Part shown: piece after piece, positions 8,649 to 33,696 of the stretch
Position numbering within the stretch: the first letter of the stretch is position 1
Layout of the letters: each line of letters starts with the position of its first letter
Source of the DNA: Acidobacteriota bacterium
GTDB taxonomy: Bacteria > Acidobacteriota > Polarisedimenticolia > J045
NCBI GenBank assembly: GCA_024763475.1
Contig: JANTFM010000005.1
Coordinates: forward strand, 1-33,729
DNA: 33,729 bases
Direction of reading: 5' to 3'
The notes under the pieces: model-generated
Told to the model about the DNA's origin: nothing
Databases searched by the model: none
Seen by the model: the letters and a program-made list of their open reading frames with translations, nothing else
Program-made: the position numbers and the translations under genes

Positions 8649-10925
8649 CTAGGTTTCCGAGCCTTTTGGTGCAGGGAAGGAGGTTGGGGAGCCACCGACC
8701 TCGAACTCAACCCGTCCGGCCGTGATGCCTTCACTCATGAGCCGATCGAGGTCCGCGCGCGACTCCGCCTTCAACGAGCGCTCGAAGAGGGCCAAAGTGT
8801 ACTCTCCGGGAGGCAGCGTATTGGCCGGCACGACGGCTTCGTATTCTTGACAGGACCACTGGGCATGACGAATTGCGCTGCGACTCGAGGTCAGGACTTG
8901 GTACATCGCCCTTCTCTCAGGTGGGGAGGAGGATTCCGTTGGCCCCGGGCTCGCCGTCTCTGTCGCGGTCTTCTGGAAGAGAACGACACGGGGCGGGCCA
9001 TTCCGTCCGCAGCTCACGAAGCGCAGCGCGAGCTGGTCACTTCTCGCGAGACGCTCTCCGTCTCGGATCGGAATGAAGCCCCGCCGGGATGCGTCTCGGG
9101 GGATCTCGAGCTGCGGCTTGCCTTCGTCGCGGAACAGGAAATCGCGGCCGCTGTTCCTTCCGAGGCGCAGGGCTGACAGCTGGGCGATGCGGTCGGCAGG
9201 TGAGGGAATGCTCACAAGTGCGCTGGAGGCGCCGACGTCACCGGTGAGCAGGTCCTCGACAACCACGCGAATCTCGTAGTTCCCTGGTCCGGGCAGCTGG
9301 CAGTGGGACTCGAGCACCAGCATGGCGGGAGGATGCCGGGTGGGAGGACGGGGTGCTCGGATGATTCGTGCAACGCCGTCTCCGAGGCGACAGAGCTCGC
9401 GTTCCTTCTGGTCGGTCACAACACCTTCCCATGAGATGCGTGCCAGGTAGGAGTGCCCCTCTCCACCGGGCTGGAAGAGCAGGTCCGTCAGCAGCACGGA
9501 GACCTCGACGGGTGTGTCGAGTTTTCCCCCGTTCAGCGCCGGATAGGCTGCGGTGACCCTGACCTCGGGGAAGTTGTGAGAGCTGGGCTCGATCAGGGCG
9601 GCCAGGCGGTGTTGCTCTCGAGTTGCATTCTCGCCGAGCAGGGTAAAACCCGACGGTGTGCGGACGCGGTAGCGCCAGAACTCTGGATGGGTCTTCGTAT
9701 CGAGATCGACGAGCACCGTGTGCCTCTTGGAGCCCTTTCGGGGCGGGTCGACGGGCACGCTGAAGAGGTAGTAGCAGGAAAGCTGGGAGAGGGCCCTCTC
9801 GAAGCTGATGGCGAGTCGTCCGGCGGAGTGGATGGCCTCTCCTCCCGTATTCGAGGCCATGTAGCTCATCAGGCGAGAGTTTCTTGCGAGGGAGCGGTCC
9901 CCGGAAAGGCCCCGCGCATCCACCGGCCAGATCGTGAAGCCTTTCTGGGCCGCGTGGAGAGTCTCCGTGACCTGCGTCAGCCAGAGCTCCTCGCTGAGAT
10001 CAAACCACCCGCTGGTGAAAAGGACCAGCGCCTTGCGCCCGGGAATGGACGCGTGGGCGATCATCACGCTTTCGAGCGCAGCGATCGAGGGCCTGGGGTC
10101 GACATCGAGGCGGGCCAGCGACATTCCCGGTGCTGCTGGAAGAGCTTGACCCATCTCCACACGGTTCGAAAAAATGTCGATCGCAGAACTCTCGATCTTG
10201 ATCGCGGGCACACCCCTCACGAAATCCGGAGTGTCATCACTGGTGGCTCCTGAAAGCGCATCCGGAGACGTGAAGGCTTCTTCTGAATTCTGCTCCAGCT
10301 TGCCGGAAACAGACGAGTCGGTGATCCGAGAGGGCCCTACCGAAACCAACGTTTCGAGGGTGCGGGCGGCTTCTCGAATGGCCTCGGGTTGACTCGTGAA
10401 ACCCTCTGTTAGAGGAAGGAGTTTCCTCGAGTAGACCAGGATCTTCACTCGGAGCGATACCTGCTCGCTGCGCTGCGCGAGCTCGTCGAGCGCCTGAACC
10501 ACGGCATGCCGCATGTTGGGTGCGAGGAAGTTCAGGTCTATGAACACGATGAGCGTAGGTTGCTCGCTTGCCAGAAAGCCCTCGCGCTGAGCGGGCGCGC
10601 TGCCGCAAACCTCATCGAACTCCACCTTGTCGGCGGCCTCGCCTTCGAGCAACTTGCCGTCGAGGCGCAACTTGAACACCTCTCTCGAGAGTCCTTTCAC
10701 CGAAGCCCAATCGCTCCCCTTGGGGTCGATCACCGAGACGTCGATCTGGACGCGATTGACGCTCTCCCGCTCGATATGGGGGGTTGCAAAAGGCGGAGGG
10801 TCCTCGGCGCGAGAGTAGGGGCCCGAAGCCCATGGCGCGAGACCGGCCAGGACGAGCACTATGGGCGGAATGACAGTGGCGAAGAACCGCTTTACGTGTG
10901 ATAAACTGTGTGTTTTGGGGTCCAT
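8649..10925 (-). CDS. secreted VWFA-related domain protein
   Basis: N-terminal hydrophobic signal (FFATVIPPIVLVLAGLAPWASG); LIVFIDLNFLAPNMRHAV and RKALVLFTSGWFDLSEE resemble VWFA-related domains. Confidence 0.75.
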   Translation of the reverse strand: MDPKTHSLSHVKRFFATVIPPIVLVLAGLAPWASGPYSRAEDPPPFATPHIERESVNRVQIDVSVIDPKGSDWASVKGLSREVFKLRLDGKLLEGEAADKVEFDEVCGSAPAQREGFLASEQPTLIVFIDLNFLAPNMRHAVVQALDELAQRSEQVSLRVKILVYSRKLLPLTEGFTSQPEAIREAARTLETLVSVGPSRITDSSVSGKLEQNSEEAFTSPDALSGATSDDTPDFVRGVPAIKIESSAIDIFSNRVEMGQALPAAPGMSLARLDVDPRPSIAALESVMIAHASIPGRKALVLFTSGWFDLSEELWLTQVTETLHAAQKGFTIWPVDARGLSGDRSLARNSRLMSYMASNTGGEAIHSAGRLAISFERALSQLSCYYLFSVPVDPPRKGSKRHTVLVDLDTKTHPEFWRYRVRTPSGFTLLGENATREQHRLAALIEPSSHNFPEVRVTAAYPALNGGKLDTPVEVSVLLTDLLFQPGGEGHSYLARISWEGVVTDQKERELCRLGDGVARIIRAPRPPTRHPPAMLVLESHCQLPGPGNYEIRVVVEDLLTGDVGASSALVSIPSPADRIAQLSALRLGRNSGRDFLFRDEGKPQLEIPRDASRRGFIPIRDGERLARSDQLALRFVSCGRNGPPRVVLFQKTATETASPGPTESSSPPERRAMYQVLTSSRSAIRHAQWSCQEYEAVVPANTLPPGEYTLALFERSLKAESRADLDRLMSEGITAGRVEFEVGGSPTSFPAPKGSET

Positions 10926-10994
10926 AGCTCAGATGGTTAGAGCGGCTGACTCATAATCAGCTGGTCCCAGGTTCGAGCCCTGGTGGGCCCACCA
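10918..10994 (+). tRNA. tRNA with CAT anticodon (tRNA-Ile2-like or elongator Met)
   Basis: GGGTCCA...TGGGCCC-ACCA acceptor stem with encoded CCA; GCTGA-CTCATAA-TCAGC anticodon arm; GGTTCGAGCCC T-arm. Ile (lysidine-modified CAU) versus Met cannot be settled by eye. Confidence 0.95.
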
Positions 10995-19149: not shown

Positions 19150-20058
19150 ATGATGGGGCCCGAAGTTTTCGTTTCGACAGCGTCCGCTCGCAATCCGCGC
19201 GATCTTCCCAGAGTTCTCGACCGATTCCTGCGCGCGGGAATCTCAGCGATCGAGCTGTCCGCTCCCCACCCGTATCTGGGAATCACAGAGATCGAATCGC
19301 TGTTGAAGGCTTCCCAGGACAGGGGAGCTAAGTTTATTCTTCATAACTACTTTCCTGCTCCGAAGGAGCCAATCGTCCTCAACCTTGCTGCAGTGCGCGA
19401 TGACGACCATGAAGCGACTCTATCGCTTGTGCGGGAGGCTCTGACCCTCGCAGAAGAGACGAAATCAACACTCTATACCTGTCACGCAGGCTATCGAGCC
19501 CACGCGATCTGCCCAGCAGGCGGACAATTCAAGTTTGAACGATTAGATGTAGATGCAAAATTACGAGCGAATCACCGCCAGCGGCAGAGCCTAGCCTCGA
19601 TCCTCGAGACTCCGGCCCTCCGCTCCGGCGCGCTTCGCTTCGGCATCGAGAACCTCTTCCCCTGCGAGTCCGGCGGCGAGAACGTCAGCTACTGCTGCAC
19701 TCCGCCCGAAATTCTGGAGCTTCTGGACCACTTCGCGGATCAGCATCTCGGGCTGCTCCTTGACCTCGGCCATCTCTCCATCACGGCCACCCTGCTCGAC
19801 TGCGACCCCGATCAGCTCCTCGACGAGGTGATCAGACTCTGCGGCGATCGTATCCTCGAGGTTCATCTCTCTGGCAACGACGGCATGCGGGATCTCCACC
19901 ACCCCCTTGAGCCCACGGCGTGGCAACTCCAGGTTCTCCCGCGTCTTGCTCACCTCCCCGGCACCGGTGACGGCCTCTTCTTCACCCTCGAGGCCAGAGG
20001 CCTAAGTGAAGACGAATGTCTCACCCAGGTTGATTTGATCCGAAGTGCTCTCCGTTGA
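19150..20058 (+). CDS. sugar phosphate isomerase/epimerase-like TIM-barrel protein
   Basis: IENLFPCESGG..., LLLDLGHLSITA, ILEVHLSGNDG resemble the xylose-isomerase-like TIM barrel family. Confidence 0.75.
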   Translation: MMGPEVFVSTASARNPRDLPRVLDRFLRAGISAIELSAPHPYLGITEIESLLKASQDRGAKFILHNYFPAPKEPIVLNLAAVRDDDHEATLSLVREALTLAEETKSTLYTCHAGYRAHAICPAGGQFKFERLDVDAKLRANHRQRQSLASILETPALRSGALRFGIENLFPCESGGENVSYCCTPPEILELLDHFADQHLGLLLDLGHLSITATLLDCDPDQLLDEVIRLCGDRILEVHLSGNDGMRDLHHPLEPTAWQLQVLPRLAHLPGTGDGLFFTLEARGLSEDECLTQVDLIRSALR

Positions 20059-20413
20059 GACTCCTGCGATGAGAAACACTAAGTCCCTTTATAGCAACGT
20101 GCTAACCGAAGTCGACAACGGCACCCCGGGTGATTCCTTTCTCACCCAGGTTGATTCGAAGGGGGCTGCAGAGCGTCCTGCGACGAGAATCACCGAGGCG
20201 ACTCGCAGCACCGCAATCACCAGGGACGGCCACCGCACCCGGGTTGATCTGCGTCTCACCCAGGTTGATTCGGGGCGGCGATGAAAAGCGCTGGATCGGG
20301 TCCTCTTGAGGAGAAAACCAAGAGTGACAACCCCACCCAGGTTGATTCGCGTCGGGTCGTAGCTTCGGACGGAGAGGGGCAACGTGTCGTTGACAACCCC
20401 ACCCAGGTTGATT
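20024..20413 (+). repeat. left CCCAGGTTGATT repeat cluster (5 exact and 2 degenerate copies)
   Basis: Exact copies at 20024-20035, 20145-20156, 20259-20270, 20336-20347 and 20402-20413; variants CCCGGGTTGATC at 20238-20249 and CCCCGGGTGATT at 20124-20135. Confidence 0.92.
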
Positions 20414-21753
20414 CGCGTCGGGTCGTAGCTTCGGACGGAGAGGGGCAACGTGTCGTCGTGGTCGGCCTCGGTTTTGTTGGGCTTACCTTGGCGCTCGCGC
20501 TCGCGCGCAGGGGTCTTGACGTGCGAGGTGTCGACACGAATCCCGAGACCCTGCGTTTGCTCAGGCAGCGGAAAGCTCCGTTTCATGAGAATGGGATACA
20601 GGAGTGCATCGAGGATCTGGTGGGGCGACGTTTGATCGTTTGCGACTCGCTTGAAGAGGCACAGGGGGATGCCTATATCGTGGCGGTTGGCACACCGCTC
20701 GAGGAGGACGGCCGCACGCCCGCGCTAGGAGGGTTGAGAGCAGTCTGTTCCCAGGTCGGCCACGTGCTTCAGGAGGGGAACCTCGTGGTGCTGCGTTCGA
20801 CGGTGCCGGTCGGAACAAGCCGTGAGGTCGCGCTTCCGGTGATCGAGGAGGCGTCCGGTCTTCGCTGTGGCAGGGGCTTTCGTCTAGCCTTTGCGCCTGA
20901 GCGCACCGCCGAGGGGCGCGCACTCCACGAGCTGGCGACGAATCCGCAGATCGTTGGTGGACACACGAAGCCGGCCACCGAGTCCGCGATGCGCCTATTC
21001 GAGAATCTGAGCGAGGCCGTGATTGATGTGGGCTCCCTCGAAGCCGCCGAGTTGAGTAAGCTGATCGATAACTCCTACCGTGACCACGTCTTCGCCTACG
21101 CGAACATGCTGGCGCCCCTGACGGAGAGATTGGGCCTTGATCTCCACCGGATCGTCGATGCGGTGAACTTCTCATACGAGCGCAACCGCGTTCCGCGCCC
21201 GTCTCCCGGAGTGGGAGGCCCTTGCTTGTCGAAGGATCCGCTGCTTCTCGCAAGCGTCTACGAGCGTCACGGTCTCTCCACCCAGATGATCGAGGAGGTC
21301 CGGAGGATCAATACCCGCGGACCAGGGCTCGTTTGCGACAAGCTGCTCCGCTTACTCGATGCTGCGGGAAAGCAAGCCTCGATGGCTCGTGTCAGCCTGG
21401 TGGGCCTTGCTTTCAAGGGCGAGCCGGAGACCTCCGATCTGCGGGGTTCGACCTCGCTCGCGCTTCTCGCGCAACTGCCGGAGATCGGGCAACTGCGCGG
21501 CTACGATCCCGTCGTTCCCGCAGAAGCGATCGCAGGCCTTGGGCTGCTGCCCGTCTCGCTGGAGGAGGCGTTCGAGGACGCGGATGCGCTTCTCGTGCTC
21601 AACAATCACGCGAGCTACAGGGAGTGGAAGCTGCCGACTTTGCTCGATAGGATGCGCAAGCCGGCGGTTTTCATCGACTGCTGGCACCTCTTCGAACCCA
21701 CGGTGATCAAAGGCGTGGAGAGAATCCTCTACGGTGGAGTTGGCAATGACTGA
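20281..21753 (+). CDS. UDP-glucose/UDP-ManNAc/GDP-mannose dehydrogenase family protein
   Basis: VVVVGLGFVGLTLALALARRG, STVPVGTSREV, FAPERTAEGRAL, GVGGPCLSKDPLLL. The true start may be GTG 20458, downstream of the 66-bp repeats. Confidence 0.9.
   Translation: MKSAGSGPLEEKTKSDNPTQVDSRRVVASDGEGQRVVDNPTQVDSRRVVASDGEGQRVVVVGLGFVGLTLALALARRGLDVRGVDTNPETLRLLRQRKAPFHENGIQECIEDLVGRRLIVCDSLEEAQGDAYIVAVGTPLEEDGRTPALGGLRAVCSQVGHVLQEGNLVVLRSTVPVGTSREVALPVIEEASGLRCGRGFRLAFAPERTAEGRALHELATNPQIVGGHTKPATESAMRLFENLSEAVIDVGSLEAAELSKLIDNSYRDHVFAYANMLAPLTERLGLDLHRIVDAVNFSYERNRVPRPSPGVGGPCLSKDPLLLASVYERHGLSTQMIEEVRRINTRGPGLVCDKLLRLLDAAGKQASMARVSLVGLAFKGEPETSDLRGSTSLALLAQLPEIGQLRGYDPVVPAEAIAGLGLLPVSLEEAFEDADALLVLNNHASYREWKLPTLLDRMRKPAVFIDCWHLFEPTVIKGVERILYGGVGND
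20325..20456 (+). repeat. perfect 66-bp tandem duplication (2 copies)
   Basis: TGACAACCCCACCCAGGTTGATTCGCGTCGGGTCGTAGCTTCGGACGGAGAGGGGCAACGTGTCGT at 20325-20390 and 20391-20456. Confidence 0.97.
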
Positions 21754-22741
21754 GATCCTGGTCACGGGGGGGTCCGGGTTCATCGGCTCCGCAATCGTTG
21801 AGCGCCTTCTTCAAGGGGGCCACAGCGTGCGGGTCCTCGACGATCATTCCCGTGGAACACCCAGGGCGCTCGAGCGTTTTGGTTCGCGGATCGAAGTCGT
21901 CTGCGGGGACGTTCGTCGCTACGAGGATGTGGCTCGCGCGATGGACGGCGTGCGTACGGTCTACCACTTGGCATACGTCAACGGGACGCAGTTCTTCTAT
22001 ACGAAACCCGAACTGGTGCTGGACGTGGGTGTACGTGGCCAGCTCAACGTGCTCGACGCGATCGAGAGCAGCCGCAGCGTCGAGACCTTCCTCTATGCGA
22101 GTAGCTCCGAGGTCTACCAGACCCCAAGCGAGATTCCCACCGGAGAAGACGTGCCAGCCGTTGTCCCGGATCTCGCGAATCCCCGCTATTCCTACGGTTG
22201 CGGCAAGATCGTCAGCGAGATGATGACGCTGCACTACCTGCGTCGCCCCGGCGTCCGGAGGGTCATCGTTCGTCCCCACAACGTGTATGGGCCGCGCATG
22301 GGCTACGAGCACGTGATTCCCGAAGTGATGCGCATGATCGGAGACGAGAGCCGGGGTTTTTCGGCGAAGCAGGTGACGATCCGGCTGCAGGGAAGCGGCG
22401 AGGAGACGCGGGCCTTCTGCTTCATCGACGATGCGGTCTCCGGCTTCATCCGGGCTGCCGAGAGGGGGGAGGACGGGCAAATCTTTCACTTGGGAAACGA
22501 GGACGAGATCACGATTCGCGAACTGGTCGGCGAGATGGCCCGGATCCTGGGCATCGAGGTCACCGCCGAGCCTGGTGCACCCGCGCCGGGAGCGACGCCC
22601 CGCCGCTGTCCCGATATCCGCAAGCTGCGGGCCTTGGGCTATGCGCCGGGAGACAGCCTGGGAGAGGGCCTGAGGTGCACGGTCGAGTGGTACCGCGAGG
22701 ATTACCTCCGGCGCACCCAGTGCAAGCCCGGAGTCTGCTGA
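21746..22741 (+). CDS. NAD-dependent epimerase/dehydratase (extended SDR)
   Basis: ILVTGGSGFIGSAIVERLL, YASSSEVYQ, YSYGCGK (YxxxK), RPHNVYGPRMG. Confidence 0.92.
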   Translation: MTEILVTGGSGFIGSAIVERLLQGGHSVRVLDDHSRGTPRALERFGSRIEVVCGDVRRYEDVARAMDGVRTVYHLAYVNGTQFFYTKPELVLDVGVRGQLNVLDAIESSRSVETFLYASSSEVYQTPSEIPTGEDVPAVVPDLANPRYSYGCGKIVSEMMTLHYLRRPGVRRVIVRPHNVYGPRMGYEHVIPEVMRMIGDESRGFSAKQVTIRLQGSGEETRAFCFIDDAVSGFIRAAERGEDGQIFHLGNEDEITIRELVGEMARILGIEVTAEPGAPAPGATPRRCPDIRKLRALGYAPGDSLGEGLRCTVEWYREDYLRRTQCKPGVC

Positions 22742-22756
22742 GGAGATCTCTTGTTC

Positions 22757-23857
22757 ATGGAGCGCATTCCGATTTCCAACGCCACGCTCGGCCGGGCTGA
22801 GGCGGAGGCCGCCAGTCGACAGATTCTTTCCGGTTGGGTTTCGATGGGTGCCCGTGTGCGGGAGTTCGAGGCGCGCTGCGCGGACTACCTCGGCGCGCGC
22901 CACGCGATCGCCTTCTCGAATGGTACGGCGTCCCTGCACGCCGCTCTCCTCGCGCTCGGAGTGGGGGAAGGCGACGAGGTCATCGTGCCGAGCCTGTCCT
23001 ACATCTCTTCGGGCAACGCGGTGCTCTACTGCGGGGCCAGGCCCGTCTTTGCGGAGGAGGACGAGCGGACCTTCAACGTCGATGCCGAGGAGATCGCACG
23101 GAAGATCACGGATAAGACCCGCGCGATCATGACCGTCGACCTCAAGGGCATGCCGGTCGACTACGACGCGATCAATGAGCTGGCCGCGGCGCGTGGAATC
23201 CCGGTGCTCGCGGATTCGGCGGAGTCCTTTGGCGCACGATACGGAGGCGAGCTCGTCGGGAGCCAGTGCGACGCGCACTCCTTTTCTTTCTTCGCGAACA
23301 AGAACATCACGATGGGCGAGGGGGGGCTCGTCACGACCGCCAGCGACGAGATCGCGGAGGCTTGTCGCTGCGTGCGCAACCAGGGCCAGAGCGAGCGATA
23401 CCGCCACGTGATCTTGGGTCACAATTACCGGCTGACGGACATTGCCGCGGCGATTGGTATCGAGCAGCTCGGGCGCCTCGAGGCGGTTCTGGACGCCAAG
23501 GAGCGGATCGCCCGCATCTACACTGAGCACTTTTCGGAGATGGGTCGTGTCGAGCCGCCCTATCTGCCGCCCTATGTCGGGCGTCATTCCTGGTACATGT
23601 ACTCGATTCGTTTCGATCAGAGCGTCTGTCGTGACGATCTGCGCCAGCGCCTCGATGTGGATGGGATCGACACGCGACTCTCCTTTCCGCCGATCCCGCT
23701 CCAACCCTACTACCGGGAGCGCTTCGGCTATCGAGAGGGTGATTTTCCCCGGGCGGAGCGGATCTTCCGTTCCTTCCTGGACATTCCCTGCTGGGCAGGT
23801 ATGAATGACGGTCAGATCGAGCGGGTGATATCGGCCGTGGAGCGAGGTATTTCATGA
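22757..23857 (+). CDS. DegT/DnrJ/EryC1/StrS family aminotransferase
   Basis: AFSNGTASLHAALLALGVGEGDEVIVPSLSYISSGNAV, DSAESFGARYGG, FANKNITMGEGGLVTT. Confidence 0.93.
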   Translation: MERIPISNATLGRAEAEAASRQILSGWVSMGARVREFEARCADYLGARHAIAFSNGTASLHAALLALGVGEGDEVIVPSLSYISSGNAVLYCGARPVFAEEDERTFNVDAEEIARKITDKTRAIMTVDLKGMPVDYDAINELAAARGIPVLADSAESFGARYGGELVGSQCDAHSFSFFANKNITMGEGGLVTTASDEIAEACRCVRNQGQSERYRHVILGHNYRLTDIAAAIGIEQLGRLEAVLDAKERIARIYTEHFSEMGRVEPPYLPPYVGRHSWYMYSIRFDQSVCRDDLRQRLDVDGIDTRLSFPPIPLQPYYRERFGYREGDFPRAERIFRSFLDIPCWAGMNDGQIERVISAVERGIS

Positions 23858-24855
23858 AGATCGTCGTCGTCGGGTCGGGATCCATCGGAAAGCGTCACAT
23901 GGGAAACCTGATCGCCAAGGGCTTCGCCCCAGGCGAGATTCACGCGGTGGACCCGCGGCCGGATCGCCGGGCGGAGGTCGCGAGCCGTCTCGGAATCACC
24001 CAGACCCATTCGTCCTTCGAGGAACTGATCGGCCTCGGCGCGGAGATCGTCGTGATCGCCTCCCCGACGTCGATGCATCTCGAGCACGCCGCCCGCTTCG
24101 CCGAGACGGGGGCCACCCTGCTGATCGAGAAGCCGTTGGATGCGAGCCTGGAGGGTCTCGACGAGCTTCAGGGAGCGATCGCGCGAGGTGGCAGCAAGGT
24201 GCTGGTTGCCTATCCCTTCCGTTTCTCACCTGCGGGTCGCAAGCTCAAGGAGCTCAGCGACGGGAATGCTGCGGGGCGGCCGCTCTATCTCCGGGGTGAG
24301 TTCTCCGAGTACCTGCCGGACTGGCATCCCTGGGAGGACTACCGGGAGTTCTACATGGCCAAGGTCGCACTCGGAGGCGGTTCTCTCCTCGATCAGAGCC
24401 ACATCATGGATCTCGCCCACTGGCTCCTTGGAGAGGTCGAGGGGGTTTTTGGATACAGCGGTCGTGTCTCGGATCTCGAGGTCGAGACCGATGACTTGGC
24501 GGAGATCCAGGTGCGTTTCCGCTCCGGGGTCATCGCCACGATTCACCAGGACATGTTCGGCCGCCGCCACCAGAAACTGCTCGAGATCAAGGGGACCCTG
24601 GGGAACATCACCTGGAACGCCTACGACTTCTCCGTGGAACTCTTCCTCCGGGCGGCGGGTGAGACCCGGCGATGGGAGTTCGCCAAGGACCATCAGGTCA
24701 TGTATCACGCGCTGATCGATCACCTGCTCCAGGTGCACCAGGGAGAGCAGGCGCCGGGATGCACTCTCGACGAGGCGATTCACGGCATGCGCATCATCGA
24801 GGCCGTGCGCCGCTCGGCCGTTTCTCTTCGTCAGGAGACCCTCGAAGCTTCATGA
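23854..24855 (+). CDS. Gfo/Idh/MocA family oxidoreductase
   Basis: VVVGSGSIGKRHMGNLIAKG, IASPTSMHLEHAARFAETGATLLIEKPLD, GGSLLDQSHIMDLAHWLLG. Confidence 0.93.
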   Translation: MKIVVVGSGSIGKRHMGNLIAKGFAPGEIHAVDPRPDRRAEVASRLGITQTHSSFEELIGLGAEIVVIASPTSMHLEHAARFAETGATLLIEKPLDASLEGLDELQGAIARGGSKVLVAYPFRFSPAGRKLKELSDGNAAGRPLYLRGEFSEYLPDWHPWEDYREFYMAKVALGGGSLLDQSHIMDLAHWLLGEVEGVFGYSGRVSDLEVETDDLAEIQVRFRSGVIATIHQDMFGRRHQKLLEIKGTLGNITWNAYDFSVELFLRAAGETRRWEFAKDHQVMYHALIDHLLQVHQGEQAPGCTLDEAIHGMRIIEAVRRSAVSLRQETLEAS

Positions 24856-25032
24856 ATCCTCCGGGATCTCGCCCGCCAGCTCGCACCCGATAGACGCCTG
24901 CTCATTGACGATCCCGCTCGCGGAACCCACATTTCGTGCAGGATCTTTCGAAGCCGCTCGCAAGTGTTCAGCGGCGGACGGAGACCTGTCCCCGGCATAG
25001 CTGGATCTCAACAGCGGGGTGAGGGAACGCGC

Positions 25033-27963
25033 ATGGATTCTGCTCTGCGAACCGGGTTTGCGGCGAGTGCCTGGCCAGATCATCACTTCGGACTGAGCGA
25101 GGAGCGCTGGAGTCTCCTGCGCGGCAAGGCGGTCTGGCTCACGGGCGCCGGCACGGGTTATGGCCGTGCGATCGCCTGCATCCTCGGCGCGGCGGGATGT
25201 CGCGTCTTCCTGACGGGGCGGCGCAGAGCCAAACTGGAGCAGACCATCGAGGCGGCCCGAGCGTTGGGTGCTTCCAAGGAACGTTTCGTGCTGGTCCCTG
25301 CGGATCTCGCTGATCCCGCAGAGATCAACCGCGCCGCCGCGAGGATCCGGGAGGAGGCGACCGAGCTCTTCGCCCTGATCGCCAATGCGGCGCTTCCAAG
25401 CTCCGGGCGACTCCCCCTGCTCGAAGGAGACCTATCCCGCTGGGACGACATGATGGCGGTCAATCTGCGAGCACCCTGGCTGCTGACCCGAGCTGTTGCG
25501 GGATCGCTCGCTGCGGCAGGTTCCGCGCGTGTCCTGTTCATCAGCTCGGAAGCCGGTTGGGCGGACACTGCTGGATTCGGGGCCTACAACGTCTCCAAGG
25601 CGGGTCTCAACAGCCTCTGCCACTCCTTCGCACGGGAGTTCGCTACGGCTCATCCTGGAGCAGACATCCAGGTGAACGGGATTCTGCCCGGTGAGGCCGA
25701 GACCGAGATGAACCCGGAGTCCAAGGCGAGCCCCTTCCGCATCGTTGCCACGCTTCTCGAGCTGCTGACCCAGGACTGGGGTGGGCCGAGCGGCCGTTTC
25801 TTTCACGCCGACGGCCGCTCTCTTGCGTTTGGCCACAGTCAGGCCTGGCAGCCCGCTCTGGACGCGAGGCCCGCGCACGTTGCGCAGACCCTTCTGCACC
25901 AGATGACTGAGGCTGGAAAGCAGTTCTTCCTTCCGCGCAGTATCTGCTTCGACCACGGTCCGCGGGATCTGAGGATTCTCAGCCTCGTTGCCAACCGTCT
26001 CGTGGAGAAGAAACGATCTCTTGCGTTCTACGGCGCGGGCAAGCTGTGTCGCTATATGCTCGAGCGGGTTCCCCGGCTCTGTGAGCATATTCGCTGCATC
26101 GTTGATGACCACCCGTCGAGCCAGGGTCAGGCGGTGTGCGGAATCCCCGTACTCCCCGCCAGCGAGCTACCCGGGGAGATCGAGACCGTCTTCTTCTGCA
26201 CGACCGACTTGTCCACGATGGTTCGTATGCTCTTCCGTGCGGCGACGCGGAAATGGAAGATAGAACGCGTCAGCCTCGATGTGATCCAGGAACTCGACCC
26301 TCGTTTGATTCCCGAGGAGGGGTGGCAGAAGCCCATCGCCTCGATCTACCCCAAGCAGATACCGGAAATCGTGTTCGAGAAGGGGCAGGACATGATCCTG
26401 CTCGAGCTCCCCCCCCGGTACCAGCCGCTCGTTCCGAACGGAATCGGCTACGTCAACAACATCCTTCGCACGACGGGGATTCGTTTCCAAACGATGGATC
26501 TCAACATCATCTTGTACCATCGCTTCCACCAGCGGCGAATCCTCAATCGTCTGGATTCGACGGCCGGCCCAGAGGGCCAGCGAATCCCGGAAGATCCGTG
26601 GGCGATCGTCGAGTGCCGCGGATGGGAACAGCCCGAGGTTCTCAAGTACTTCGCGCGCGACATCGAGGAGATTGTGAGCGGCCTCATCAAGGCCAAGCCC
26701 AGGATACTGGGCATCTCCCTAAGTGGGTTTAACCGCGAGCTCGCCAAGACGATCGTTCGCCGGGTAAAGGAACAACTCCCTGAACTGATCGTGATCGTCG
26801 GGGGATACGACTGCATCCGTCCGCTTCCGGGAAAACGTCACTTTGCCGATTTCGACTACATGGTCATCGGAGAGGCCGAGGAGACTCTCGGTCCGTTGAT
26901 CGCCGCGCTAATGCGCGGAGAGCGACCGATGGACCAGCCGGGAATCCTTTCCCGCCACGACTCCGCGCAGCGCGTCTTCGAGTACGGTCCCAAGCCAACG
27001 GATCTCGACAAGTACGGCTACCCCCAGTACGAGTGGGCGGACTTGAAGCTCTACCAGGCCCACGGGGGGCAGTACTTGATTCCCGTTGCGGCATCCCGTG
27101 GATGCGAGTGGTCCCGCTGCCGCTTCTGCTCGGAGTGCTTCACGTTCCGCGCGCGCGATCCCCAAAAAGTCGTCGACGAGATCGAGTTCATGACGGGGCA
27201 AGGTTTTCGAGCGATTCATTTCAATGACAGTGACATGAACGGAGATCCAGCGATCCTGCAGCAGATCTGCGAAGGCGTCATCGCGCGGGGCATCAAGACG
27301 GCACTCGTCGGTCAACTTCGCATCGACCGCCGGAACACGCCTGAGTTCCTGGACAAGCTGAAGCGGGCGGGATGCGCGCATTTGCGCTATGGCGTGGATG
27401 GCTGGAACGACCGCGTGCTGCGCCTCCAGGCCAAGGGTTACAGCATGAAAGTCGTAGAGCAGGTGCTGAGGGACAGCCACGCTGCCGGTTTCTACATTGG
27501 TGTGAACGTCGTGCTAGGACTTCCGGGAGAGACCGAGCAAGATGTCGATGAGATGATCGAGAACTTGATTCGACTCTCACCCTACTACGACATGGTCGAG
27601 AATATTCATACGTTGATCCTCGGTGTCGGCAACCAGTACTACGCGAACCCGGAGAAGTACAAGATCCGCTTCCGCTCGGATCAGCGTGAACTCTATCTAT
27701 CACATGTTGACTCCATCCCAACAGACCAGTGGTACAGCGAAGACCCGTACATCGACCAACAGGTACGTGTCGAGCGGCTCGAGCGGGTGGCAAAGGCGCT
27801 AAGCGGCGCTGCGATCGAGCTTGGAGGTTATGCAAAGCATACGGTCGAAAGGCTGGCGCGACAGGCACAGGACGTCACGCTCGCGTCACAGGGGAGAAAG
27901 GGTGAAGCTCGACTCACCCTCCCGCCCGCCATGCCGAAACCCGTGGCGAACACGGCCCTATAA
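25033..27963 (+). CDS. SDR + Rossmann-like (PglD/CoA-binding-like) + B12-binding-type radical SAM fusion protein
   Basis: SDR: VWLTGAGTGYGRAIACILGAAGCRVFLTGRR, YNVSK. Middle domain: RSLAFYGAGKLCRYMLERVPRLCEHIRCIVDDHPSSQGQAVCGIPVLPASEL. Radical SAM: SRGCEWSRCRFCSECF, FNDSDMNGDP, YGVDGWNDRVLRLQAKGY, VLGLPGETEQDVDEM. Confidence 0.85.
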   Translation: MDSALRTGFAASAWPDHHFGLSEERWSLLRGKAVWLTGAGTGYGRAIACILGAAGCRVFLTGRRRAKLEQTIEAARALGASKERFVLVPADLADPAEINRAAARIREEATELFALIANAALPSSGRLPLLEGDLSRWDDMMAVNLRAPWLLTRAVAGSLAAAGSARVLFISSEAGWADTAGFGAYNVSKAGLNSLCHSFAREFATAHPGADIQVNGILPGEAETEMNPESKASPFRIVATLLELLTQDWGGPSGRFFHADGRSLAFGHSQAWQPALDARPAHVAQTLLHQMTEAGKQFFLPRSICFDHGPRDLRILSLVANRLVEKKRSLAFYGAGKLCRYMLERVPRLCEHIRCIVDDHPSSQGQAVCGIPVLPASELPGEIETVFFCTTDLSTMVRMLFRAATRKWKIERVSLDVIQELDPRLIPEEGWQKPIASIYPKQIPEIVFEKGQDMILLELPPRYQPLVPNGIGYVNNILRTTGIRFQTMDLNIILYHRFHQRRILNRLDSTAGPEGQRIPEDPWAIVECRGWEQPEVLKYFARDIEEIVSGLIKAKPRILGISLSGFNRELAKTIVRRVKEQLPELIVIVGGYDCIRPLPGKRHFADFDYMVIGEAEETLGPLIAALMRGERPMDQPGILSRHDSAQRVFEYGPKPTDLDKYGYPQYEWADLKLYQAHGGQYLIPVAASRGCEWSRCRFCSECFTFRARDPQKVVDEIEFMTGQGFRAIHFNDSDMNGDPAILQQICEGVIARGIKTALVGQLRIDRRNTPEFLDKLKRAGCAHLRYGVDGWNDRVLRLQAKGYSMKVVEQVLRDSHAAGFYIGVNVVLGLPGETEQDVDEMIENLIRLSPYYDMVENIHTLILGVGNQYYANPEKYKIRFRSDQRELYLSHVDSIPTDQWYSEDPYIDQQVRVERLERVAKALSGAAIELGGYAKHTVERLARQAQDVTLASQGRKGEARLTLPPAMPKPVANTAL

Positions 27964-27965
27964 TG

Positions 27966-28001
27966 ATCCTCCCCAGCGCAGAGGGCGCGGGTGAGGAGGA
28001 T
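27966..28001 (+). promoter_or_regulatory. predicted RNA hairpin covering the neuB-like ribosome binding site
   Basis: ATCCTCC-CCAGCGC-AGAGG-GCGCGGG-TGA-GGAGGAT. The SD AGGAGG (27994-27999) lies in the 3' arm, 9 nt before ATG 28009. Confidence 0.5.
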
Positions 28002-28008
28002 TGCTGAG

Positions 28009-29079
28009 ATGCCCAGGACTTTCCAGATTGGCGACGCGAGCATCGGTTCGGGAGAAAAGACATTCATCATCGCCGAGGCCGGGGTGAACCACAACGGTGA
28101 CCTCGCCATGGCCAAGGAACTGATTCGCCAGGCCAAGGTGGTCGGGGCCGACTGCGTGAAGTTCCAGACCTTCATTGCCGAGCGGCTTGTGACCAGGAGC
28201 GCCCCTAAGGCCGATTATCAACTCAAGACCACCGATCCGGGCGAATCGCAACTCGCGATGCTCAAGGCACTTGAGATGAGCTATGACGCGTACGAGGAGT
28301 TGATCGCACTGGCACGCGAGCTAGGTATCGTATTCCTGTCTACTCCCTACAATCCCGAGGACTGCGACTTTCTCGAGGCGTTCGGTCTTCCCGCATTGAA
28401 ACTGGCGTCAATCCACTGCGTCGAGCCCCCGATGCTCGAGCACGCGGCACTCAAGGGCAAGCCGCTGATCCTCTCCACAGGTATGGCGGATCTTGGCGAT
28501 GTGGAGCAGGCCGTAGGGGTGATCCGTGATGCTGGGTGCGAGGACTTTGTTGTCCTCCAGTGTACAACAGACTATCCGTCTCGGATCGAGAATACGAACC
28601 TCCGGGCGATGGGGACCATGAGAGAGGCGCTGGATGTCCACGTGGGCTACTCGGATCACACGCAGGGCGCGAGTGCTTGCATTGCTGCGGTTGCTCTGGG
28701 CGCGCGAGTCATCGAAAAGCATTTCACTCTCGACAAGTCCCTACCTGGGCCCGATCAGTCGAGTTCGTCCGACGTGGACGAGTTTCGTGCCCTAGTTCAA
28801 GCGATCCGTCAGACCGAGGCTGCGCTCGGGGATGGCATCAAGCGTCCTGCGGCCATCGAAGTGGAGAACGCCCGGGGCATGCGGCGCAGCCTCGTGGCCC
28901 GACGGAATATCTTGGCGGGAGAGATTCTGGAGCAGGGGATGGTGGGTTTCATGCGGCCGTCGACAGGTGTGCTTCCGCGGGACTGGTCCCGGGTGGCAGG
29001 GGTGAAATTCGCAAGAGATGTTGCGGCTGGCGAGGTGATCGTCTGGCCGGACCTGGGGCTCGAACGTGAAGAACGCTAA
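28009..29079 (+). CDS. NeuB-family N-acylneuraminate/nonulosonate synthase with C-terminal SAF domain
   Basis: FIIAEAGVNHNGDLAMAKELIRQAKVVGADCVKFQTF, LSTPYNPEDCDFLE, HVGYSDHTQGASACIAAVALGARVIEKHFTLD, RRSLVARRNILAGEIL. Confidence 0.94.
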   Translation: MPRTFQIGDASIGSGEKTFIIAEAGVNHNGDLAMAKELIRQAKVVGADCVKFQTFIAERLVTRSAPKADYQLKTTDPGESQLAMLKALEMSYDAYEELIALARELGIVFLSTPYNPEDCDFLEAFGLPALKLASIHCVEPPMLEHAALKGKPLILSTGMADLGDVEQAVGVIRDAGCEDFVVLQCTTDYPSRIENTNLRAMGTMREALDVHVGYSDHTQGASACIAAVALGARVIEKHFTLDKSLPGPDQSSSSDVDEFRALVQAIRQTEAALGDGIKRPAAIEVENARGMRRSLVARRNILAGEILEQGMVGFMRPSTGVLPRDWSRVAGVKFARDVAAGEVIVWPDLGLEREER

Positions 29080-29863
29080 GTATGTCTACTGTGGCTATGG
29101 CTACGCGGGCCGGATGGGCCTGTGGCGCATGATGACAGAGTGCGCGATTCCGGCGAGGAATATCCTCGCCTACACCTACGACTCGGAAGAAAACCGCTCA
29201 CTCTTGGACCTCCTGGAGCAGAGCGGCATTTCCTATCACCTGAACCGTATCGCCGGAGAAGGCGCCAGAGACGAGGTGCAGGCCTTCGGGGCCGACTTGC
29301 TCGTTTCCGTCTACTATCGTCACCGCGTGCCCAATTCGGTGCTCTCCCTCGTTCGCCGGGGGGGCATCAACCTGCATCCCTCCCTTCTTCCTGAGTACCG
29401 GGGGACCTTCTCCGGTCCGTGGGCGATCATCAACCGTGAGGAAGAGACCGGAATCAGCTGGCACGTCATGACGGAGGCCTTCGACGAGGGTGCATTGCTC
29501 TTGCAGGAGCGCTTTCCACTGGCCGAGCGAGAGGATGGCTACACGCTCTATCAGAAGCTCGTGGCCACAGGGACTCACTGGATCGGCGAGGCAATCAGCC
29601 GTGCGCTGGACGAGAGCTTCGTGCCCCAGGACCAGAAGGGTCAGGGCAGCTACTACCCGCGGGAGCTGCCATGCGGGGGAAAAATCGATCCGTCCTGGCC
29701 TCGGCAGCGGGTCGATGCGTTTATTCGCGCGCTTCGTTTCCCGGGAAAGCCCTGCGCGCATCTCACGCTCGAGGGGATGGAGTTCGAGGTGGAGAGTATC
29801 GAACAATACGATCTCATTCTTGAGCAGGTCCTTGCGGCGGATGAAGAGGGCGTCAATCCATGA
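29066..29863 (+). CDS. formyltransferase family protein (methionyl-tRNA/sugar N-formyltransferase fold)
   Basis: GGINLHPSLLPEYRGTFSGPWAIINREEETGISWHVMTEAFDEGALLLQERF; GTG start overlapping the synthase gene. Confidence 0.88.
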   Translation: MKNAKYVYCGYGYAGRMGLWRMMTECAIPARNILAYTYDSEENRSLLDLLEQSGISYHLNRIAGEGARDEVQAFGADLLVSVYYRHRVPNSVLSLVRRGGINLHPSLLPEYRGTFSGPWAIINREEETGISWHVMTEAFDEGALLLQERFPLAEREDGYTLYQKLVATGTHWIGEAISRALDESFVPQDQKGQGSYYPRELPCGGKIDPSWPRQRVDAFIRALRFPGKPCAHLTLEGMEFEVESIEQYDLILEQVLAADEEGVNP

Positions 29864-31947
29864 TTCCCGTCAACGAAACTCTTCCAGGGAAGCTGAACGC
29901 TCTCGCCCGCTGGCCCGATCTCGGCCAGGTTCATGACAAGCGGGTCCTCGTCTTCGGGTTCTCGCCGCACTGGATCAACTACTTCGCGTTGATCAGCATG
30001 GTTCTCGTCCATCGGGGCTGCCGGGTGGACTTCGTCTGGACACCCGTCTACGAGCACGACAACGCCGATGTCGTGGCGCATGCGGAGAGCGTGCGGGAGA
30101 TCTTTGAGCCTGCATTCGCCTCCGTGTCTCACGATCGATTTCGCGCGTTCAACTTGCGCGACCTGCCGATGGCTCAGCTCAGCGACGAGATGCTGGACGA
30201 GGTCCGCGCGCAGAGTCGCGAAGATGTCACGCACTTCACTAGGGAGGTCAAGACGGATCCCGAGCGGGATGCCCCGCGGCTCTTCGGACGACGCCAGCAC
30301 TACAATCACGAATGCATGGCGTCGCTGTTGAGCCTGTTCCAGAAAAACGAGTACGACCTCGTTTTGGAGCCGAACGGCAAGGTCTACGAGTGGGGCATCG
30401 TCTACCGGCTCGCGAGCATTCTCGGCGTCGCGGTGAGTTCGGTTGAGAGCTTCCGCTGCGGCTTCGACCAGGCCTTCGTGCACTCTTTCGAGCATCCCGC
30501 GATCCTCTGGAACGAGGAGACGATCGCAGCCGCCTGGAAGGCGAACGAGCCTCATATCGCGAGTGACCTGACGCGGGAGCGCGTGCGCAAGCTCCAGGAG
30601 CGCTTCGACGCACCGGACAAGGATCTCTCGCTGCAGTTCTGCGAGGGAGGCCAGGCGGACACCTTGCGTGAGCGTCTCGGTCTCGATCAGGATCGACCGA
30701 TCGTGCTGCTTCTCCCTAGCCTGGGCTACGAGAAGTTCTACCGCTTGGAGCACTACTGCTTTCGGGACGGTGTGGACTGGTATCTCGAGAGCCTGAACTA
30801 CCTTGCGGGGCGGGATGACTGCTATCTCGTGATCCGCTCCCATCCCTTCCCCTACGGTGACGGCCGGGAAGACCCGATGAACCACCGGTCCTCCGGAGAG
30901 ATCCCGGAGCGGCTGATGGAGGAGCACTTTGCCAAGTTACCCGAGAACCTACGCTTCATCTCCGCCACCGAGGAGATCAACACCTACGACTTGATGGCGA
31001 TCGGCGACTGGGCCCTGTGCTACAGCTCGGTCACGGGTCTCGAGATGGCGCTTGCAGGAAAGTCTGCCGTCGTTCCGACATCGATTCACTACAACGGCAA
31101 GGGGTTCACGCGAGCACCCCGTACGCACGAGGAGTACTTCGCCGCGATCGACACGCTCTTGGCCGATCCCTCCCGCGGCCGGCTCAACCCGCGGCAGATC
31201 GAGTTGGCGCAATGCTACGTGGAGGTCTTCTACTACCTCTACCCCAGCCCCTTCCCCTGGAATATCAGCATCGGCGGCTTCCTCTACGAGGAGTGGCCGC
31301 TCGAGCGTGTTTTGTCTCTTGAGGGCCTGCTCTCACCCTTCATGGACACCTTCGATGCACTGGTGGAGCGCCGGCCGCACACGGATGCACAGAAGCTGGC
31401 AGAGTTGAGAAGCTATCTCGCGGCGATCGCGGGGAGCGCAGGGTCGGGCGACTTCGCCTCGACCACGCGCCTGCTCGGGCACCTTGAGGAGGTCGACTTT
31501 AGCGCGCTGGCGGCTCGTTACCCGGAGAGTTCTGCGCATCTGGTGCAGCGCTGGACGGCGCTGGCGGAACTCGTTCGCGGTTGCCGGGGCGCGGAGGACT
31601 TCGCGCGGCTTGCCGAGGCGACGGCGCAGGCGACCGGCACGGAGGAATGGTTCGCCCAGGAGCTGCTCAAACTGCGCCCCCTGCGTGTCGAACAACGTCT
31701 CGTCAAGGGCACGGCGCTCTACCGGGAGCGTGACGTCGATGGCGCGATGGTGCTCTTTCGCGAGGCTCTCGATCTCGACCAGAACTGTGCACAGGCCTGG
31801 AATAACATCGGCGTCATCCTGCATGGCAGCCATCAGCAGGACGCGGCGCTCAAGGCCTTCGAGACCGGTCTCGCAGCGGATCCGGGGAATGTAGACTGTC
31901 AGCGGAACTATGCGGCGTTGAGGATGGAACTTCAGCCGACGAGCTGA
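29860..31947 (+). CDS. glycosyltransferase-like / capsule-biosynthesis-like protein with C-terminal TPR repeats
   Basis: GT-B-like C-terminal half (CYSSVTGLEMALAGKSAVVPTSIHYNGKGFTRAPRTHEEYF); C-terminal TPR (GTALYRERDVDGAMVLFREALDLDQNCAQAWNNIGVILHGSHQQDAALKAFETGLAADPGN). Confidence 0.7.
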   Translation: MIPVNETLPGKLNALARWPDLGQVHDKRVLVFGFSPHWINYFALISMVLVHRGCRVDFVWTPVYEHDNADVVAHAESVREIFEPAFASVSHDRFRAFNLRDLPMAQLSDEMLDEVRAQSREDVTHFTREVKTDPERDAPRLFGRRQHYNHECMASLLSLFQKNEYDLVLEPNGKVYEWGIVYRLASILGVAVSSVESFRCGFDQAFVHSFEHPAILWNEETIAAAWKANEPHIASDLTRERVRKLQERFDAPDKDLSLQFCEGGQADTLRERLGLDQDRPIVLLLPSLGYEKFYRLEHYCFRDGVDWYLESLNYLAGRDDCYLVIRSHPFPYGDGREDPMNHRSSGEIPERLMEEHFAKLPENLRFISATEEINTYDLMAIGDWALCYSSVTGLEMALAGKSAVVPTSIHYNGKGFTRAPRTHEEYFAAIDTLLADPSRGRLNPRQIELAQCYVEVFYYLYPSPFPWNISIGGFLYEEWPLERVLSLEGLLSPFMDTFDALVERRPHTDAQKLAELRSYLAAIAGSAGSGDFASTTRLLGHLEEVDFSALAARYPESSAHLVQRWTALAELVRGCRGAEDFARLAEATAQATGTEEWFAQELLKLRPLRVEQRLVKGTALYRERDVDGAMVLFREALDLDQNCAQAWNNIGVILHGSHQQDAALKAFETGLAADPGNVDCQRNYAALRMELQPTS

Positions 31948-32022
31948 GTGCCGGAATTCCGCGTCACCGAGTGAGTGAAGTCGCCAGGCCACCAGCCTGT
32001 ATCGGAAATCACCGTGCAGCGG

Positions 32023-33204
32023 TCAGTGCAAGGGGATCCGGCCGGTAAAAACGGCCTTGTGGCCGCTCCAGTACATGTAGGGAAGACTCGACGCGTCGGC
32101 GTTGAGCTTCCAGACGGTGTTGGCGATCGAAGCGTCGCCTGTGTCGGTGACTTGCTGAAGTGGGCTCCAGGCGGAGGTGGCTGGGTCCCAGCGTGCATAC
32201 CAGATGTTACTGTGGCCTGCTTCGGCTTCGTCGAGGGTGACGAGCAGGTGGACCTCGTCGCCCCGCGTCGTGATCATGGGGGTGAAGTCGTACTCGCGTT
32301 GGGTCTTGTGCTTGACGAGATCCTGGTACTTCCAGTGGCGCTTCTGGCCCAGGCGCTTGTAAGCATGCTCGACCTGCGTGTGCGTGCAGGTCCAGACGAC
32401 GTGAAGCGTGTTGTTGTCGGTGACGGCGAAGGAGAACTCCCGGGTTCGCTCGCCGCGGTCGCAGCGGCGACCATCCGCGAGGTCCCAGATCAACGAGTCC
32501 TTGGGCTTCTCGAAGGAGCTGCCGTTCCAGCGGAAGTAACGCAGGCTTGTGTCGTTGGCGCTTCCCGACCACACCATGACGAGAGGCTTGCCGTCCGCAT
32601 CCAGCGTTGCGCCGATGCGGATGTTCTCCTTGTCCATGTTCTCCACGAAGCCGGACTCGAGCAGCTCACCCTCGTGGGTGTAGCGGAAAAAGCGCAGGTT
32701 GCCCGCCTTGTCGCGCGAGGTGCGGGTGAAGACGAAGAGCTCCTTGTCCGTGGCGACGAGGCTGGAACGCTTCCCGATGCCGGGATCGGTCTCGATCTCC
32801 CAGCCTGGTCCAATGTTTTCGGTCGACGTCGCGGGACTCACGATCGTCTTGACGAAGACCCTGCGGGCATGGGGGTAGGTGACCCAGAGCTGGTCCCCGC
32901 TACCACTCAGCGCGGCGTGGTTGTCGAGCCATGCACTGACCTCGCCGCCCTTGTTGCTGTCGTAGATCTTCCGCGCGTTGTCGCGAAAGCCGGCATAGCT
33001 CTCGCCACCGTCTTCCGAGAGGAAGAGTTGGTCCCGATTGTCAGCGATCAGGAGCCAGACGCGGGAGCTGTCCGCCGGATCCATGTACATCTTCCAGCGC
33101 GGAATGCCCCGGGTGGGGTGTTGCTGCTCGGTCTTGACGAGCCGTCCATCGCCGAAAGCGGGCAGGGTGATGAGAAGTGTCAGCAGGATCGCTGGCCAAC
33201 GCAT
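32023..33204 (-). CDS. secreted beta-propeller / BNR-Asp-box-like protein
   Basis: Signal peptide MRWPAILLTLLITLPAFGDG; LSEDGGESY Asp-box-like motif; repeated WYARWDPATSAWSPLQQVT / RYFRWNGSSFEK blades. Confidence 0.65.
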   Translation of the reverse strand: MRWPAILLTLLITLPAFGDGRLVKTEQQHPTRGIPRWKMYMDPADSSRVWLLIADNRDQLFLSEDGGESYAGFRDNARKIYDSNKGGEVSAWLDNHAALSGSGDQLWVTYPHARRVFVKTIVSPATSTENIGPGWEIETDPGIGKRSSLVATDKELFVFTRTSRDKAGNLRFFRYTHEGELLESGFVENMDKENIRIGATLDADGKPLVMVWSGSANDTSLRYFRWNGSSFEKPKDSLIWDLADGRRCDRGERTREFSFAVTDNNTLHVVWTCTHTQVEHAYKRLGQKRHWKYQDLVKHKTQREYDFTPMITTRGDEVHLLVTLDEAEAGHSNIWYARWDPATSAWSPLQQVTDTGDASIANTVWKLNADASSLPYMYWSGHKAVFTGRIPLH

Positions 33205-33446
33205 GGTCTGTCTCCGATTTCCCGCCGGAGTTTCCGGCGAAAACTGCGGGGGAAGAGCCTCCCGCCTGCTTCTACTAGTCGCATCCCACCGGGCCCAGCG
33301 CAAGCCCCGAGGCCGCTCCATCGCAGATCAGATTGGCCCCAGTATCAGTATTCGCTACATTGCTGGGAGCGAGAGCAGCTTGGGTGGAGCCGAATCGCCC
33401 CGTTCCCAGAGGAGATAGCGGGGGATCCGCGTCTCGTGCAGCCTGC

Positions 33447-33475
33447 TTGCAGTGGAGGAAATATGCATATATACA
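33447..33475 (+). promoter_or_regulatory. possible sigma70-type promoter upstream of the 24-bp array
   Basis: TTGCAG-17 nt-TATACA in a locally AT-rich segment. Mutually exclusive with use of the ATG at 33463. Confidence 0.35.
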
Positions 33476-33696
33476 CGCAAATACAGACAATATTGGACAC
33501 AACGGAATCAACCTGGGACCCCGTCTCAGCATCAACCTGGGACCTTTTCTCAGAATCAACCTGGGACCTTTTCTCAGAATCAACCTGGGACCTATTCTCA
33601 GCATCAACCTGGGACCTTTTCTCAGAATCAACCCGGGACCTTTTCCCGGACTCTGTCGAGGAGTGGTGCGTGGCCGCCAGAGGAGGCAACGGGTGA
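33463..33696 (+). CDS. candidate 77-aa repeat protein with octapeptide repeats (E/A)STWDLFS
   Basis: SD-like GGAGG at 33454-33458, ATG 33463, in-frame 24-bp repeats. Stop TGA overlaps the next GTG start (GTGA at 33693-33696). Confidence 0.35.
   Translation: MHIYTQIQTILDTTESTWDPVSASTWDLFSESTWDLFSESTWDLFSASTWDLFSESTRDLFPDSVEEWCVAARGGNG
33507..33650 (+). repeat. right tandem array, 24 bp x 6, carrying AATCAACCTGGG
   Basis: Unit ATCAACCTGGGACCTTTTCTCAGA, with copies starting at 33507, 33531, 33555, 33579, 33603 and 33627; few substitutions. Confidence 0.97.

Follow-up and report, generated by a model that had tools for sequence, protein, structure and literature searches.

Two arrays of the same 12-bp word, CCCAGGTTGATT, face each other across ~13 kb of surface-glycan genes, which raises the question of whether they act on that locus or belong to something else. 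A preliminary description suggested a binding site for an unknown protein, a recombination or inversion site serving the glycan locus, or a lineage-specific repeat family, with the caveat that the word might be common genome-wide. The window, that is, the whole 33,729-nucleotide stretch analysed, makes up all of contig C5; the draft genome from which it comes (G000) has 4.05 Mb in 484 contigs.

Results

Two facing arrays in the window

The window contains 13 matches to CCCAGGTTGATT with at most two mismatches, as compared with 1.86 expected; none of 100 shuffled sequences reached 13. The left array, on the plus strand, has exact copies at 20024, 20145, 20259, 20336 and 20402, confirming the five first described between 20024 and 20413, and copies with two mismatches at 20124 and 20238. 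The copies of the right array are on the minus strand, as described, with exact copies at 33506 (one base earlier than given before), 33554 and 33578, and copies with one mismatch at 33530, 33602 and 33626.

Copy 1 of the left array (20024..20035, +; CA-CCCAGGTTGATT without its two leading bases) falls within the ORF at 19150-20058, close to its C-terminal end, where it is translated in frame to LTQVD. Copies 2 (20145..20156, +) and 3 (20259..20270, +) are intergenic, and copies 4 and 5 belong to a perfect 66-bp tandem duplication (20325..20456, +). The latter two are also in frame (NPTQVD): the UDP-sugar dehydrogenase ORF 20281-21753 has an N-terminal extension in which both are translated; residues 56-487 of the 490 in this protein align to solved enzymes, and both copies lie outside the aligned part. 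In the right array (33505..33645, minus strand) a 24-bp unit is repeated 5.9 times in tandem, giving six word copies, three exact and three with one mismatch. The array lies upstream of the minus-strand ORF 32023-33321 and points the same way, and the contig ends 84 bp past the array. No known RNA family matched at either array; the sole confident RNA family match in the window was a tRNA gene at 10918-10991 (+).

A larger duplicated segment around the word was rejected, as only about 18-24 bp are common to the arrays. The word itself is the shared unit, as had been proposed.

The word is dispersed throughout the genome

A genome-wide count gave 73 exact 12-mers in G000 and 0 for the reversed word used as a control, so that the earlier caveat was well founded. 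The extended 14-mer motif, SWCCCAGGTTGATK, was present in 138 copies. Flanks of 108 copies yielded the consensus M-B-S-W-CCCAGGTTGAT-K, in which position -1 is always A or T and position -2 is C or G in 97% of copies. Arrays are direct, each with its own spacer and period (24, 29/30, 35, 46, 56, 66 and others); apart from the word, they have almost no sequence in common. Near exact words in G000 we counted 113 exact, 19 one-off and 15 two-off copies, the last against a background of 6; the scarcity of one-mismatch copies indicates that the word itself is constrained. Alignable consecutive spacers differ at 40% of positions and the word at 4%, a comparison biased by the choice of copies through their core.

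Arrays are mostly intergenic and sometimes in frame within genes. Among the loci read, 17 of the 46 word clusters lay in coding sequence as compared with 78% of random points (with a rough gene caller), showing that clusters prefer intergenic DNA. They occur in both orientations, near unrelated genes of mixed orientation, and are not special to the glycan locus. Neighbouring clusters elsewhere face each other (C1, C96, C354), oppose each other (C61, C219) or run parallel (C3, C31), and the reading of the arrays as borders or inversion sites of the glycan locus is therefore unsupported. The two arrays are best explained as ordinary members of a genome-wide word population. No association of arrays with tRNA was found, and a search of the open literature for the word returned unrelated strings only. 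In G000 the ends of many contigs (e.g. C3, C60, C122, C170, C213, C354) lie about 50 bp or less from a word or array, which would fit copy-number variation between strains.

Word spacings in G000 were multiples of three in 35 of 63 cases, above expectation, and several genes read the word as (T/S)QVD. One example is a cinA-like gene of a Planctomycetota MAG (L130:1712-3613; Zod_Metabat.340), in which an in-frame word array of about 150 amino acids precedes the last segment, and the C-terminal segment of CinA resumes afterwards. In such in-frame arrays the word is identical at the DNA level, without synonymous change, pointing to a constraint on DNA rather than on protein. For the in-frame array L033, an empty-site comparison turned up no close homologue. 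As for ordinary coding background, the single copies present in conserved genes (DEAD helicase, LarE) align without gaps and may be chance.

A RAYT-like transposase adjoins the word

A search for protein families recurring near arrays, as proposed in the preliminary description, was productive: PF01797 (RAYT/IS200 family) ranked top, with matches directly adjoining words, and RAYT was the only recombinase gene that recurred beside arrays. The partner protein, a RAYT-like transposase of the HUH/Y1 type, has about 300 amino acids, an SNHYH motif, a catalytic tyrosine and a long C-terminal extension. G000 carries two full-length genes of this subfamily (C122, C60) and a third that is cut off (C78). 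An alignment of nine full-length members spans about 300 residues and shows N59-H60-x-H62, Y120 and N124-P125 to be invariant; the Y1 (IS200-like) core thus has the HUH motif and single catalytic tyrosine of a RAYT. PF01797 was found in eight of the nine, with weak Pfam scores; NCBIfam REP_Tyr_transpos scored 31-64 bits (E down to 1e-17), below its 80-bit cut-off, and the best PDB match of the subfamily profile was E. coli TnpA-REP (4ER8, E 1.6e-4). In the C-terminal extension the only Pfam HTH match was a chance-level one to CecR_C (E 0.22), and the predicted model was poor (pLDDT 48). An upstream extension of the RAYT ORF passes through a tRNA gene.

Nine subfamily loci have over 36 bp of 5' flank, and in every one the word lies on the same strand, 52-562 bp upstream of the start codon. 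An upstream word in the wrong orientation occurs in none of the nine; the chance per locus is about 0.3-1% at the genome's word density. Three contigs of G033, from another family of the same class, hold only the N-terminal end of the RAYT (C53, C54, C157), and in each a word precedes it by about 95 bp. Inverted words, CCCAGGTT, follow about 210-310 bp past the stop codon in six loci (L231, L233, L234, L246, L257, L259), and the RAYT gene is flanked by inverted copies of a repeat dispersed through the genome. Seven more distant RAYTs (below 100 bits) have no word nearby. A link to sigma-28/sigma-54 promoters, raised by the flanks of L105, L097 and L131, was dropped, the sigma-28-like stretch being the shared leader of the RAYT gene.

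Distribution of the word and of the transposase

Close relatives lack the word. The 14-mer SWCCCAGGTTGATK has 62 copies in G033 and 0-3 in the other 39 genomes of the class, and of 396 genomes sampled from the phylum, two have paired words. Across 85,488 species genomes, a scan gave paired words in 40 stretches, chiefly from MAGs labelled Myxococcota, Deltaproteobacteria and Planctomycetota, and the word is identical in these other phyla though absent from close relatives. Word counts were 89 in G122, 41 in G120, 21 in G121 and 14 in G123. Some single hits of the scan (e.g. L109, L116, L119, L126) resemble ordinary coding repeats. The earlier suggestion of a lineage-specific repeat family thus came close: the family is a dispersed repeat, shared with a few genomes of other classes and phyla. 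The viral contigs scanned held no paired words; carriage by phage or plasmid was rejected, the RAYT having no viral relative and plasmid matches being only distant.

Word abundance broadly tracks presence of the RAYT subfamily, which passes 1e-30 in four of 297 sampled genomes of the phylum; tested relatives without the word also lack the subfamily. No full-length cognate RAYT was found in G120 (41 copies) or G122 (89 copies), an absence that is weak evidence because these genomes are incomplete MAGs. G033 has inverted word pairs 25-80 bp apart that resemble REPINs or BIMEs (L194, L201, L202, L203).

Sister transposases have their own words

Sister RAYTs have repeated words of their own just upstream: CATCCGAGGGTAC, CCACCCTTTTCG, GTAGGTGTCTGG, CCACCCGAATTC, CCTAGGTTGAG, CCAGGTTGCTG and ACCCTTTTCG. 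Together with their nearest sisters, the word-type RAYTs make up a clade of 16 sequences, supported (95/90) as a whole rather than in its inner order; a few of its members have a different word. The sister word CCACCCTTTTCG occurs 24 times in G265, in same-strand clusters, 8 times in G272 and 4 times in G054, as compared with 0-2 in nine genomes without its RAYT clade. In G265 its arrays lie on both sides of a related RAYT (C6:143014-166660; RAYT in L261), and its dispersal there repeats the word-RAYT finding with a second word. CATCCGAGGGTAC is hardly dispersed, with only five copies in G124. In L238 (G123) a repeated ACTTCAACGTCGGTGAGGTTCCATC lies downstream of a degenerate RAYT and is probably a further lineage-specific word.

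Discussion

It is very likely that the arrays are REP/TIR-like recognition sequences of a RAYT-type (REPtron/TIRtron-type) element, which would cleave and mobilize the word. The transposase would recognize the word in single-stranded DNA and nick and rejoin at it, and could in this way have spread it in trans to intergenic sites and to in-frame positions within genes. Where words came to lie close together, local duplication between them would generate arrays with locus-specific units and one constant word; known RAYT chemistry does not account for the array units. The initial suggestion of a binding site for an unknown protein was near the mark, in that the word has an identifiable partner protein, the RAYT, which would recognize it.

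Part of the arrangement could also be expected if the word were the operator of a global regulator, the arrays being multi-site control regions and the RAYT one target among others: most arrays lie between genes, constraint on the word is tight whereas its flanks vary, and both arrays of the window precede same-strand genes. An operator would not, however, be expected to sit in frame inside genes, to be missing in close relatives yet identical in other phyla, or to differ at each sister RAYT, and the downstream genes in G000 are of mixed orientation; we regard this as improbable. Shared-core minisatellites, in which a recombinogenic word seeds local tandem duplication and the RAYT is a passenger, would account for array-specific unit lengths and for spacers unrelated between arrays. 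This leaves unexplained why every RAYT with flank has the word, why inverted copies follow the RAYT gene and why word and RAYT are paired in a second clade, and is very improbable.

A DNA uptake sequence (DUS/USS-like) enriched through biased transformation would likewise be a short constrained word on both strands, also in coding sequence, and the inverted pairs of G033 lie near gene ends. Known uptake sequences number a thousand or more copies, however, as compared with only about 20-140 here, and neither tandem arrays, strict placement at RAYT genes nor a patchy distribution across phyla is in keeping with this origin, which we consider highly unlikely. Recombination or inversion at the surface-glycan locus has in its favour that the two arrays face each other across it. 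Dozens of other clusters lie by unrelated genes in all relative orientations, the word alone is common to the arrays, and the sole recombinase gene recurring beside them is the RAYT, making this reading the hardest of all to credit.

Recognition by a RAYT-type element finds its closest parallel in REP/RAYT systems (REPtrons) such as E. coli TnpA-REP (PMC2817692), with which it shares an HUH Y1 gene bracketed by inverted copies of a short dispersed repeat, clusters, some inverted pairs and a patchy distribution. REPs are palindromic and have a GTAG-like foot (PMC2817692, PMC3733652), whereas the word is non-palindromic and, in the motif over 108 copies, has no GTAG or GGAG foot; no conserved hairpin was found at the word, no 4-bp stem position occurring in more than 9 of 97 G000 copies. 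Direct-repeat arrays dominate here, unlike in REP/RAYT systems, and the protein has about 300 amino acids as compared with about 165. The position of the GTAG-reading Q95 of E. coli is A, S or G in the subfamily (residue roles from PMC6006769).

The long C-terminal extension instead recalls TIRYTs, RAYT-like proteins with terminal inverted repeats, mostly GGGGWSAS (PMC3733652). These largely coincide with TnpA-Y1 subclass 2.1, whose proteins are long, carry HTH-like tails and lack REPs (PMC3733652, PMC6006769). Like the TIRYTs (TIRtrons), the group studied here has terminal inverted repeats instead of REPs; TIR repeats may reach moderate abundance and occur as dimers or clusters. The group differs in its direct arrays with locus-specific units; no clear HTH match was found in the extension. 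No GGGGWSAS inverted repeats were found at seven CCCAGGTTGAT-type and six sister loci; they are present at distant RAYTs such as L251. L251 and L252 (G031 and G014, same class) are ordinary TIRYT-like genes with GGGGACAG-type inverted repeats. By analogy, the group is best read as working like a REPtron or TIRtron, and we file it as neither.

Automatic and manual searches found no REP-like repeats near the genes of a large long-tailed RAYT group (PMC6006769). The long-tailed group described here, unlike that of the literature, has a clear repeat, which palindrome searches would miss because the word is linear. More speculatively, and with less than even confidence, we suggest that a C-terminally extended RAYT-like group may read a linear, hairpin-free word of 11-14 nt, specific to each lineage, instead of a hairpin and GTAG guide, and that the enzyme may actively build direct arrays, even in frame as in cinA. 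The several word-RAYT pairs offer a ready panel for studying DNA reading by this class of enzyme and the growth of arrays. The findings also caution that a gene cluster and the repeats on its flanks may be unrelated.

In neisserial dRS3/NIME elements a short constant repeat alternates with variable material, and Rickettsia RPE are inserted in frame in coding genes. The word arrays resemble the former in their constant repeat and variable spacers and the latter in their in-frame insertion; both differ in being palindromic or inverted and in having no RAYT of the word-subfamily type next to them.

G122 contains dispersed mosaic elements of about 310 bp that begin at the word and end in a partly inverted copy, GAAAATCAACCACGG (L165-L184, L100, L101, L108, L121, L127). 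A MITE with the word as terminal inverted repeat was considered and rejected as a general explanation, since such elements, about 310 bp long and with a partly inverted end, occur in G122 only. One perfect inverted word pair, 276 bp apart, was found there (L168). Some of the mosaic-element loci also match Acido-Lenti-1 RNA (RF01687), an 'RNA' that may belong to a mobile repeat.
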